From Micromonospora echinofusca (GTDB lineage Bacteria > Actinomycetota > Actinomycetes > Mycobacteriales > Micromonosporaceae), in contig NZ_LT607733.1 in assembly GCF_900091445.1 (NCBI RefSeq), positions 2,682,501 through 2,746,500 on the forward strand: 64,000 bases of DNA, in the 5' to 3' direction. A model generated the notes under the pieces. That model searched no databases. It worked only from the letters and a program-made list of their open reading frames with translations, and had not been told where the DNA came from. A program made the position numbers and the translations under genes. Positions 32,324 through 46,501 of the stretch are shown one piece after another; the stretch's first letter is position 1, and each line of letters starts with the position of its first letter.

Positions 32324-34378
32324 TCATCGACCCCCGGCCCTCGAGAGCCCGGCGGCGACGTCGACGGGTGCCACCCGCCGGCGCACCCGGGCCGGCGGGG
32401 CGGGCAGGGCCCGCCGGTCGACCTTGCCGTTCGCGGTCGCCGGCAGCTCCGGCAGGGCCACGTACCGCAGGGGCACCATGTGGTCGGGCAGCTGCCGCGC
32501 CAGGAACGCGCGCAGCGCGGGCTCGGCCACGGCGCCCGGGTCGGCGTCGCGCTCGGCCACCACGTACGCCACCAGCGTCGCGGCGGCGCCCAGGTCGTCG
32601 CGCAGCAGCACGACGCTGTTGGCGACGAGCGGGTGCCGGTTGAGCACCGACTCGATCTCGCCGAGTTCCACCCGCTGCCCGCGGATCTTCACCTGGGTGT
32701 CGATGCGCCCGCCGTAGTGCAGGTGCCCGTCCGGCGACCACCAGGCCAGGTCGCCGGTGCGGTACACCCGCTGCGGCCACCCGGCGACCGCCACCTCGAC
32801 GAACCGCTCGGCGGTCAGGTCGGGTCGCCCCGCGTACCCCCTGGCCAGGCAGTCCCCGCCCAGGACCAGTTCACCGGGCACACCCAGCGGGGACAGCCCG
32901 CCGCGCTCGTCGAGGACGTACGCGGCGACGTTCGCGATCGGCCGGCCGATGGGGACGGTGTCCTCGGGCTCGGGGCGGCGGCACGGCCAGGCGGTCACGT
33001 CGATGGCGGCCTCGGTGGGCCCGTACAGGTTGTGCACCTCGACCTGCGGCAGCGCCGCGGTGAGCTTGTTGACCAGCTTCGGCGGCAGCGCCTCCCCGCT
33101 GCAGATCACCCGGCGCAGGTTGGCGCAGCGGGCCAGGCCGGCCTCCTCGACGAAGAGGGCGAGCATGGACGGCACGAAGTGCACGGTGGTCACCGACTCG
33201 CGGGCGACGACGTCGACCATCTCCTGCGGGTCGCGGTGGGCCTGCGCCTCGGCGGTGACCAGCGTCGCGCCGGTCATGAACGCCCACAGCAGCTCCCACA
33301 CCGACACGTCGAAGGTGTACGGGGTCTTCTGCAGCACCACGTCGCCGGGGCCGATGCGGTACGCGTCGCGCATCCACACCAGCCGGTTGGCCAGCGACAG
33401 GTGCGTCATCTGCACCCCCTTGGGCGCCCCGGTCGAGCCGGAGGTGAAGATGACGTACGACAGCCCTTCGACGACCTCCTCCGGCGCCCGGTAGCCACGC
33501 CAGCCGACGGGCGCGGCGGGCAGGTCGCCGCCGGTCAGCGGCTGTACGGGCACGGACGGCCCGCCGCCGGAGCCCAGCGCGGCCCGCCCCGCGTCGTCGG
33601 CGAGCACCAGCGCGGCGTCGGCCGCGCGGAGCATGAGGTCCAGCCGCGGGCGCGGGTGGGACGGGTCCAGCGGCAGGTACGCGCCGCCGGCCAGCAGGAC
33701 GCCGAGCACCGCGACCACCATCTCGGGGCTGCGCTCGGTGCACAGCCCGACCACCGACCCGGGTCCCACGCCCTCGGCGCGTAGCCGCCCGGCCAGCGCC
33801 GCCGCCTCGTCCAGCAACTCGCGGTAGCTGCGCTCCCGTCCGCCCCCGCGCAGCGCGACGGCGTCCGGGGTGCGCTCCGCCTGGCGGCAGATCGTCTCGT
33901 GCACGGGCGTGCGCGGCGCGGGGGTGGGCGCCGGGTTGAAGCCGAGCAGCGTGCCGCGCTCCACCGGGCCGACCAGCGCGGCCTCCCGCGCCGGCCGGTC
34001 CGGATGGGCGGTGAGCCAGGCGCGCAGGGTGTCCAGGCGCTCCCGCAGGTACGCCGGCTCCCCCGGCTCGCGGGCGAACCGGACCGGCACCCCGCCGAGG
34101 ACCGCCGACGCCCCGGCGACGTCCGTCCCGGGCGTGGCCAGCAGGACGTCCACGGCACCGCCCGGCGCGGACGGGTCCGCCGCGCCGGCCGCGACGACGG
34201 CATCCGGCCGCAGGCGGCGTGCCTGCTCGCGTACCCCCGTCAGGGTGCTGTCGGGGGACACCCGCACCAGGACGTCGCCGCGCGGGCCGCGCACCGCGAC
34301 CGAGGTCGCGCCCGACAGGCGGTGGCAGAGCACGGCCGCCACCGCCGCGACCAGATCCAACTCGTCGTGGCCGGTCAT
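32324..34378 (-). CDS. NRPS protein F: partial C-like segment + adenylation domain (predicted serine), no carrier
   Basis: The protein has 684 residues. Residues 1 to about 150 look like the worn C-terminal part of a condensation domain and lack HHxxxDG. The A domain (about 155-665) has all cores: FTSGSTGAPKG, FDVSVWE, NLYGPTE, YRTGDLA, and NGKVDRRAL with the A10 Lys. Specificity residues aligned by hand to PheA read D V W H I S L I D K, the serine code. There is no PCP, TE or reductase after it, so Ser must be loaded onto a carrier on another protein. Last gene of the operon; its ATG overlaps the stop of the PKS gene (ATGA). Confidence 0.85.
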   Translation of the reverse strand: MTGHDELDLVAAVAAVLCHRLSGATSVAVRGPRGDVLVRVSPDSTLTGVREQARRLRPDAVVAAGAADPSAPGGAVDVLLATPGTDVAGASAVLGGVPVRFAREPGEPAYLRERLDTLRAWLTAHPDRPAREAALVGPVERGTLLGFNPAPTPAPRTPVHETICRQAERTPDAVALRGGGRERSYRELLDEAAALAGRLRAEGVGPGSVVGLCTERSPEMVVAVLGVLLAGGAYLPLDPSHPRPRLDLMLRAADAALVLADDAGRAALGSGGGPSVPVQPLTGGDLPAAPVGWRGYRAPEEVVEGLSYVIFTSGSTGAPKGVQMTHLSLANRLVWMRDAYRIGPGDVVLQKTPYTFDVSVWELLWAFMTGATLVTAEAQAHRDPQEMVDVVARESVTTVHFVPSMLALFVEEAGLARCANLRRVICSGEALPPKLVNKLTAALPQVEVHNLYGPTEAAIDVTAWPCRRPEPEDTVPIGRPIANVAAYVLDERGGLSPLGVPGELVLGGDCLARGYAGRPDLTAERFVEVAVAGWPQRVYRTGDLAWWSPDGHLHYGGRIDTQVKIRGQRVELGEIESVLNRHPLVANSVVLLRDDLGAAATLVAYVVAERDADPGAVAEPALRAFLARQLPDHMVPLRYVALPELPATANGKVDRRALPAPPARVRRRVAPVDVAAGLSRAGGR

Positions 34379-46200: not shown

Positions 46201-46501
46201 GGGTGTGCAGGAAGGCCTCCTGGATCTCCCGGTCGGCCCACGCGCCCGTCTGCACCTCGACGTGCGCGTGCGGGGTGGGTGACACCCGCTGGGTGAGTAC
46301 GCCGTCGACCAGCGCGAACGTGGTGCGCAGCGCGTCGTGCCGGGCGACCACGCGGGTCAGCGCCGCGCGCAGCGCCTCGGGCCGCAACGCCCCGTGCAGG
46401 TGGACGGCGAACGCCACCACGTACGCCGGGTTGCCGGGCTGGAGCTGGTTGAGGAAATAGAGTCGTTCCTGAGCGAAGGAAGCACGACCGGTACGAACCA
46501 T
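43274..46501 (-). CDS. NRPS protein A: C-A-PCP module, first of the operon
   Basis: The protein has 1075 residues. The condensation domain (1 to about 440) starts almost at residue 1 (SFAQERLYFLNQLQPGNPAYV) with an intact HHIACDGWS. The A domain (about 465-970) has YTSGSTGVPKG, FDASVWEMW, NMYGITEGTIHVT and HGKVDTARL. Hand-read residues D A W F V G M I H K share W239, G301, M322 and H331 with the threonine code but differ at 236 and 278, so the substrate is open. The PCP (about 990-1055) has LGGHSFALI. A C domain at the head of the line suggests either acyl-starter condensation or an upstream partner elsewhere. The ATG at 46501 has only a distant AGGGA. Confidence 0.9.
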   Translation of the reverse strand: MVRTGRASFAQERLYFLNQLQPGNPAYVVAFAVHLHGALRPEALRAALTRVVARHDALRTTFALVDGVLTQRVSPTPHAHVEVQTGAWADREIQEAFLHTLVAEQARRPFELGDGPVLRAFLRSWGPHEHTLAVLVHHIACDGWSVGLLLRDLAAEYHAALSGTPAAYAEPAQSYLAYAQHQRDCFERDSSGLDFWRAELRDVPQLALPTDFPRPSVLSADGAVLRRPVEPRLVERLTAWARSRGTTLFTVTLAAYASVLSRYARQDEVVIGVPVANRMDEAEERVVGCLVNTLPIRLDLSGRPGFAELVERARRASMAAFANQDVPFEQIVAATVGERQLSHAPLFQTSLTVQNFPFAFPEFDGVTVTEVDVEVDVTKFDLGLTLDVSTAAPFLRAEYSTQLFTPETVTTLLAHYLTFLRSIVDGPDAEPSMVDEAERLLLTEGVNPPVARRPAEHPSVLRRFVEHVARTPDAVAVRHRDVEVTYAELDRWAGRIAAGLADRGVGRGDRVGLLLRRSPAIVAAILGVWKLGGVYVPLDPEYPRQRLELITASADLPVMLVEAATADTAGALARGRDIRLADAHTLDGTSVVAPTFPGPGDQAYVIYTSGSTGVPKGVMVGHGGLDALNDPTPAGLDVTADDVWLAASSFSFDASVWEMWGALSTGGRLVVADQADLVDRERLAALVRREGVTVLFQTPGALYRLLPPYLRLLDADEVSPIRYVVLGGEALSWSRVASLVAGAPGLRAVFVNMYGITEGTIHVTIFEAPTAELARVREGTIGVPLPSGRCYVLDDDLRPTGRNVPGELYCGGVLVAHGYVGNPELTEARFLPDPYGGGVMYRTGDVVRWGLDGNLVYLGRTDTQVQLRGYRVELAEVEGAFLTHPAVRSCAVAAENDELAAFVVGDLGPDAERELRAHVRATLPAYMVPSRILSVAAVPLTAHGKVDTARLLADSRAARDTTVPAAPRGHTAGSGLEERIRACWSEVLDRADVGLHDNFFDLGGHSFALIALQQRLSDEGLEVSVTDLFRAGTVAGCAAHLQRAAPVVADARVAQRHRGRALLAERRRTTGGRRG

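Follow-up and report, generated by a model that had tools for sequence, protein, structure and literature searches.

A compact, conserved NRPS-PKS line with a degenerate acyltransferase in Micromonospora echinofusca, predicted to build a Ser-Val-C2-X-C2 chain

Introduction

Andrimid, moiramide B and butuanimide are made by multi-protein lines of non-ribosomal peptide synthetases (NRPSs) and polyketide synthases (PKSs), in which valine and a second amino acid each alternate with a two-carbon unit (Val-C2-aa-C2) and a ketone is kept (PMC3826127; PMC13151354; PMC5216899). The succinimide precursor of andrimid is described as drawing on two malonyl C2 units besides valine and glycine (PMC3826127); enzymes for this valine-succinimide precursor are reported to be common to adm and btm (PMC13151354; PMC5216899). 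The pep cluster for pepstatin likewise consists of discrete NRPS and PKS genes; in its published description a leucine NRPS stands beside a PKS with a truncated acyltransferase (AT), together with a stand-alone adenylation (A) protein, a stand-alone peptidyl carrier protein (PCP) and a LuxR-type regulator (PMC12081711). Here we describe a locus that resembles both. It lies in a 64,000-nucleotide stretch of the Micromonospora echinofusca genome (NZ_LT607733.1, positions 2,682,501 to 2,746,500), hereafter the window, in which all coordinates are given unless otherwise stated. The locus is a real, conserved and compact line, and its product is a prediction.

Results

A six-gene line with a dead AT

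The line comprises six genes on the minus strand, running from 46501 to 32324, with neighbours overlapping by 1-8 bases. Genes were called from open reading frames (ORFs), a frame plot of G+C content at third codon positions (GC3) and start codons. Five of the six frames were taken into a Pfam domain scan, and the small acyl carrier protein (ACP) was read by its LGGxS motif. The line genes and the three genes that accompany them are:

46501-43274, minus strand: NRPS1, 1075 aa; condensation (C) domain C1 (residues 7-432), A1 (465-945) and PCP (LGGHS at 1002), by Pfam and motifs
43281-40948, minus strand: PKS1, 777 aa as called; ketosynthase (KS) KS1 (Cys204, His340, His380) and truncated AT, by Pfam, alignment and motifs
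40951..41694, minus strand: degenerate AT remnant of PKS1, about residues 530-777; GHSxG lost, post-AT linker kept
40948-40682, minus strand: free-standing carrier protein, 88 aa; LGGHS motif
40682-37248, minus strand: NRPS2, 1144 aa; N-terminal PCP (LGGTS at 36), C2 domain, A2 and PCP, by Pfam and motifs
37251-34375, minus strand: PKS2, 958 aa; KS2, intact AT (GHSVG; RAFHS) and ACP, by Pfam and motifs
34378-32324, minus strand: stand-alone A3, 684 aa; A domain without PCP, the N-terminal ~155 aa being a probable C-domain remnant
46707..47555, minus strand: phosphotransferase resembling APH(6)/hydroxyurea kinases; HGDLHLGN and IDPMACAGD motifs
47552..48403, minus strand: NarL/LuxR-type response regulator, by Pfam/profile scan; conserved in the cassette
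48570..50090, plus strand: MFS transporter, divergently oriented and kept together with the cassette; its start is uncertain

The domain order is C-A-PCP / KS-AT(dead) / ACP / PCP-C-A-PCP / KS-AT-ACP / A. Pfam and motifs thus bear out the domain list of the original prediction, which had been made from the sequence without database searches, including its dead AT and its statement that reductive and release domains are missing: no ketoreductase (KR), dehydratase, enoylreductase, methyltransferase, thioesterase (TE) or reductase domain was found by Pfam in the line proteins. The Cys-His-His residues of KS1 and KS2 are intact by motif check, as are the condensation motifs (HHIACDG in C1, HHTVADG in C2), the LGGxS/VGGxS motif of all five carriers, and GHSVG and RAFHS in the AT of PKS2. 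The RAFHS motif presumably marks a malonyl-type AT.

The AT of PKS1 gave a Pfam match of just 44 residues, below the cut-off. The protein has no GHSxG, and its AT site reads GGGLG, with G at the position of the catalytic serine. In an alignment of 32 members of the PKS1 family, the KS Cys-His-His was invariant; the AT serine site was occupied in 31 members, and by serine in none. A single GHSLG, in member P0024, lies in the linker, outside the AT site. Loss of the AT with retention of the KS is the state of PKS modules served by a trans-acting AT, and we infer that the free ACP is charged by the intact AT of PKS2 or by a housekeeping AT.

A sequencing frameshift as the origin of the split genes was ruled out, since the GC3 frames switch at the overlapping stops and starts and the splits recur in relatives. 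The called start of PKS1 (43281-43183) encodes three tandem copies of an 11-residue unit, VAEPHDGAAVA; aligned relatives have a single copy or a different N-terminus. This start is uncertain by up to 22 codons (the two extra copies), and a start at the first copy fits the overlap with NRPS1. The C-domain remnant of A3 is weak by profile in the window, clear in the orthologue of Streptomyces F-6131 (L119) and absent in two relatives.

The line is part of a nine-gene cassette

The borders were examined in five Micromonospora genomes, by comparing 29 window genes with the sequence that surrounds the orthologous KS. One of these genomes, G028, offers a short contig that ends within the cluster. 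Nine genes, namely those for the MFS transporter, the response regulator, the kinase and the six line proteins, were common to all four complete stretches at 73-93% identity (77-93% for the six line genes alone), and none of the remaining 20 window genes tested was shared with any of those stretches at the cut-off used. Recurrence at this identity in all four complete relatives shows that the line is genuine and not a chance assembly. From the nine shared genes and the 20 unshared flanking genes, it follows that the cassette spans 32324-50090 and occupies differing genomic places. The original prediction (32324-46501) had captured the six line genes and omitted the kinase, regulator and exporter. 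The border is not fully sharp in the Couchioplanes stretch, where three flanking window genes, including two for ABC permeases, have homologues (at least 35% identity); these may be ordinary paralogues.

A Zn-dehydrogenase gene 97 bp downstream (31168-32226) was considered as the missing KR and rejected: it is not a cassette member and is absent beside the four complete relatives. Its best scores, below cut-off, were to threonine and scyllo-inosose dehydrogenases.

Within the genus, a search of 160 genomes, with six candidates scored in each, found KS-dead-AT orthologues in 13, 12 of them full-length at 80-100% identity, the source genome included. The orthologue of G171 (G171:C40 27115-29375), at a locus that is probably the same place as L041, is read as two overlapping frames of 88 and 76% identity with one in-frame TAG, and is either an assembly error or a decayed copy.

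The cassette kinase matches Pfam APH_6_hur above cut-off and has the HGD and ID motifs. Its score of 66.1 bits is far short of the NCBIfam APH(6) equivalog cut-off of 325; no solved-structure relative was found by sequence. The gene was present in 13 of the 15 clusters whose upstream sequence was compared, and was not found in Kitasatospora griseola or in Streptomyces lincolnensis L4 (L054). It is a candidate self-protection or tailoring enzyme, and together with the MFS pump it probably protects the producer. In a consensus scan of 31000-50200, a single match was promoter-like (50148-50176, plus strand; 0.1 expected) and two were terminator-like (2.3 expected). As the former lies behind the MFS gene and the latter are at chance count, the scan has no bearing on cassette expression.

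Adenylation-domain codes

Nine code positions of each A domain were read by alignment to the window domains and the tenth (Lys) was assumed; the nine positions were set after PheA, and the amino acids assigned to the codes are presumptive. The window codes are DAWFVGMIH (A1), DALWFGGTF (A2) and DVWHISLID (A3), each plus the assumed Lys. A2 is valine-like, DALW(F/L)G(G/A)TF, in all 15 relatives read. A3 has a serine code, DVWH(I/V)SL(I/V)D, in the window and in 11 of 13 relatives (DVWHLGMID in the other two), in agreement with the serine of the original prediction. A1 is more varied. Nine of 15 relatives (Micromonospora and Couchioplanes) have DAWF(V/I)GMIH, three have the threonine-like DFWSVGMVH, one of these being the separate A-PCP gene of Pseudosporangium, and three have other codes. 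The window A1 code is presumably leucine-like.

Proposed assembly order and release

With five carriers, three A domains and four domains that join units (C1, KS1, C2 and KS2), the line has exactly the parts for five building blocks. We propose a compact, dissociated line that would build Ser-Val-C2-X-C2, with serine first and both beta-ketones kept, a reading to which we give an even chance. A3, which lacks a carrier of its own, would load serine on the carrier that opens NRPS2, making a split loading module. C2 would then join valine, and KS2 would add a malonyl unit by way of PKS2's own AT. C1 would next join X, a third, lineage-specific amino acid, and KS1 would add the second malonyl unit, carried on the free-standing ACP, to give, schematically, Ser-Val-CO-CH2-CO-X-CO-CH2-CO-S-ACP. 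Both beta-ketones would stay because there is no KR in the line.

Serine is placed first, and NRPS2/PKS2 before NRPS1/PKS1, because the serine-specific A3 is carrier-less and the carrier opening NRPS2 is unclaimed. By Pfam, A3 was without a carrier domain in all three proteins scanned (window, L119 and L126), and the carrier N-terminal to C2 was kept in all ten loci scanned, L054 included. That carrier is not simply the ACP of PKS1, because L054 has both, with the ACP still fused. The C-domain remnant before A3 would fit a loading module excised from a longer line. Two amino acids each extended by malonate, as originally predicted, are supported; the gene-order chain that went with them is disfavoured by the carrier-less A3 and the opening carrier of NRPS2, which point to the order proposed here.

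Release could dispense with a cassette enzyme if the chain cyclises, through attack of an amide N to give a tetramate, or through closure of the first malonyl active methylene on the X ketone (Knoevenagel, with decarboxylation) to give a 3-acyl-pyrrolinone. Release by ring closure is thus possible; otherwise a discrete thioesterase encoded elsewhere in the genome would free the chain. An ordinary alpha/beta hydrolase is encoded in the window at 10874-11674, far from the cassette.

Wider family and ancestry

A protein-database search with PKS1 scored 8000 candidates, of which 675 fell under the cut-off. Among the best 120 of these, at least 49 (P0007-P0055) form the PKS1 family at about 55-90% identity, a few of them partial, with named members in Micromonospora, Couchioplanes, Actinokineospora, Actinophytocola, Kitasatospora and Pseudosporangium; the matches after them are at ~50% identity or less and mostly AT-bearing PKSs. 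The KS-dead-AT clade also includes Streptomyces. A scan of named genomes with a 63-residue KS pattern gave 72 loci, the first 14 of which (L041-L054) belong to the family or its sister. The domain order of the window was found in seven of the ten loci scanned for domains (L041, L046-L054); in L041 and L046-L048 the locus ends within A3, and L041 is a draft with broken frames. In the deviating loci, A3 lies upstream (L051), NRPS1 has no A1 (L052) or the line is unsplit (L054). In L052 (1466-9663), from Pseudosporangium ferrugineum, NRPS1 is C-PCP, and the opposite strand carries a separate A-PCP gene with the threonine-like code and a thioesterase gene. This resembles the way in which modified amino acids are loaded on a separate A-PCP and shuttled to the line.

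In a tree of 54 KS rows, in which the L054 rows are long and the outgroup is a limited set, the dead-AT KS1 domains formed one clade of 26 (100/98) with KS1 of L054 as its sister (100/99), and KS2 formed a clade of 10 (100/100) with L054 outermost. The S. lincolnensis L4 cluster (L054, L126) shares with the window these sister KS domains, a serine A3, a valine A2 and the N-terminal PCP of NRPS2. It differs in that C-A-PCP-KS-AT-ACP and a luciferase-like monooxygenase domain, which closes the protein, are one polypeptide (L054 6398-13843) with an intact AT (GHSLG), and in that a discrete thioesterase and an extra C-A-PCP-TE gene lie downstream along with A3. The luciferase-like domain, used as a tblastn query, had no match in the other cluster stretches compared. 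Because this unsplit sister has an intact AT, a fused ACP and thioesterases, the dead AT, free ACP and missing TE are best read as derived states.

Regulation differs across the family: SARP/BTAD-type regulators adjoin four non-Micromonospora clusters (L051 1058-4234, L122 1690-3660, L123 11484-13550 and L116 15235-15999, the last assigned by blastp grouping only), and the Micromonospora cassettes instead have the LuxR-type response regulator.

Comparison with andrimid and pepstatin

As in the andrimid lines, a valine A domain is followed by KS extension without KR, judged by adjacency under the proposed chain order. The second amino acid is not glycine by the A1 code (DAWFVGMIH; threonine-like or other elsewhere). 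The line would also be unlike andrimid in having serine before valine, in place of beta-Phe or a polyene. No aminomutase/lyase, transglutaminase, type II/polyene PKS or AccD-like gene was found in the 35 window proteins scanned with Pfam, some small ORFs lying outside that scan. We do not file the line as an andrimid-type member; it is likened to andrimid by its building blocks, the adm proteins having been compared by description.

The likeness to pepstatin lies in a truncated-AT PKS beside a discrete NRPS, with a stand-alone A protein, a stand-alone carrier and a LuxR-type regulator, the PKS proteins again being compared by description. The line has no counterpart of the F420H2 reductase PepI, the C-PCP-C protein PepH or the releasing PepE: the 16 PF00296 (Bac_luciferase, F420/FMN type) matches in the genome all fall outside the window, no C-PCP-C protein is among the cassette genes, and no PF00975 match lies in the window. 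The pep PKS is described as keeping its ACP fused, whereas that of the line is free, and the residues differ (PMC12081711). For some of the same strains rakicidin-type clusters are reported; these have different modules and were set aside (PMC5075396).

No characterised cluster of the same order was found in the open-access literature searched. To that extent the original statement that no pathway could be named stands, although the line agrees with the andrimid warhead in its block order and with pepstatin in its truncated-AT logic. High-identity clusters of the same order do exist, in all four complete Micromonospora relatives and elsewhere, yet none was found characterised.

Neighbouring genes

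Beyond the cassette, the window encodes a protein with PPDK_N and PEP-utiliser mobile domains (52358-55000), which at a guess is rifampicin phosphotransferase-like or PEP synthase-like, with a small winged-helix regulator adjoining it (51969-52334). A hybrid histidine kinase at 13462-16296 combines GAF, HisKA, receiver and second HATPase_c_2 domains in one protein. Some 55-79 kb beyond the window (G000:C1 2801744-2825588), matches point to another NRPS-PKS cluster, which would include a luciferase-like domain and a thioesterase.

Discussion

Several observations weigh against the serine-first, ketone-retaining reading. The specificity of A1 is uncertain, leucine-like in the window and differing in six of 15 relatives. 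Among the 49 PKS1 members listed, four (P0025, P0030, P0032 and P0050) bear a precomputed Pfam AT label, and in the alignment all four are without the catalytic AT serine. The free ACP and the N-terminal PCP of NRPS2 share a motif type, and either might be the carrier of serine. A discrete thioesterase lies within or beside three of seven non-Micromonospora clusters, making hydrolysis a real alternative to cyclisation. Finally, the sequence neighbours of the C domains did not decide the chain order, which is not proven. Among 22 non-orthologous loci neighbouring C1, by motif reading only, 12 have a PCP motif shortly upstream, one (L151) has a carrier with a post-AT motif and nine have no nearby in-frame carrier. 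For C2, in a set of nine loci of which two minus-strand ones were read in the wrong orientation, a single non-orthologous neighbour (L131) passed the threshold; it follows a PCP motif, and its locus (L166/L167) is an unrelated NRPS cluster.

An alternative for the order, which we consider tentative and on the unlikely side, is that the line works in gene order: C1 would start with serine in trans, NRPS1, PKS1 and the ACP would supply X-malonate and NRPS2 and PKS2 Val-malonate, for a product Ser-X-C2-Val-C2. C1 looks like an ordinary C domain, and the gene order is kept in seven of ten loci scanned. However, such a line gives no clear role to the carrier fused before C2, which is kept in all ten, and gene order is not fixed, since A3 precedes the line in Streptomyces F-6131. 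It is highly improbable that a larger line lost its AT and TE and that the locus is what remains of it, decaying and without function. The dead AT, an A3 with a probable truncated C domain and the absence of a TE would suit such a remnant, but all other motifs checked are intact, GC3 has the pattern usual for coding sequence and several genera keep the architecture.

For the fate of the chain, hydrolysis by a discrete thioesterase encoded elsewhere, an outcome that we regard as fairly doubtful, would yield a linear beta-keto acid and, by its decarboxylation, a methyl ketone. In K. griseola the end of A3 is overlapped by a thioesterase gene, others adjoin the S. lincolnensis and Pseudosporangium clusters, and the 21 PF00975 matches of the source genome lie outside the window, several in short frames; a further weak tblastn match lies in a large upstream gene of the Kitasatospora stretch (L124). 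Against this, no thioesterase came up by tblastn with two thioesterase queries, which could miss divergent ones, in the sequence compared around the clusters of the window, Micromonospora, Couchioplanes, Actinophytocola, Actinokineospora and F-6131. A statine-type pathway as in pepstatin, in which a stand-alone reductase encoded elsewhere would reduce the keto groups after assembly to give a pseudopeptide resembling aspartic-protease inhibitors, appears improbable. In its favour are the combination of leucine NRPS, truncated-AT PKS and stand-alone A and PCP described for pepstatin (PMC12081711), and an aldo-keto-reductase-like gene, noted by eye, in the flanks of two of 12 genomes (G006 and G188) at differing positions. 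The leucine-like reading of A1, which here is presumptive, would also favour it. None of the genome's 16 Bac_luciferase-family matches is in the window, however, the nine genes that the Micromonospora relatives share include no reductase, and six of the 15 relatives read have an A1 code other than leucine-like.

The serine-first line may have a wider meaning. On a speculative view that we think unlikely as a whole, such lines would form a widespread actinobacterial branch of andrimid-like chemistry: split and TE-free, they would close the chain to a 3-acyl-pyrrolinone or tetramate with a valine beta-diketone warhead; serine phosphorylated by the kinase would keep the compound inactive until export; and swaps of A1 alone, as with the move of A1 to a separate protein in Pseudosporangium, would diversify the ring.

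The family offers a natural experiment, in that the sister cluster keeps its AT, fused ACP and thioesterases, and the compact clade has lost or separated them yet persists in several genera. With ~18 kb and nine genes, the cassette should suffice for testing how a loading module works when split, how an AT is borrowed and how a chain is released when no terminal domain is present. In its predicted valine-diketo core the product would be similar to the warhead of known inhibitors of acetyl-CoA carboxylase, and it is a reasoned target for genome mining.

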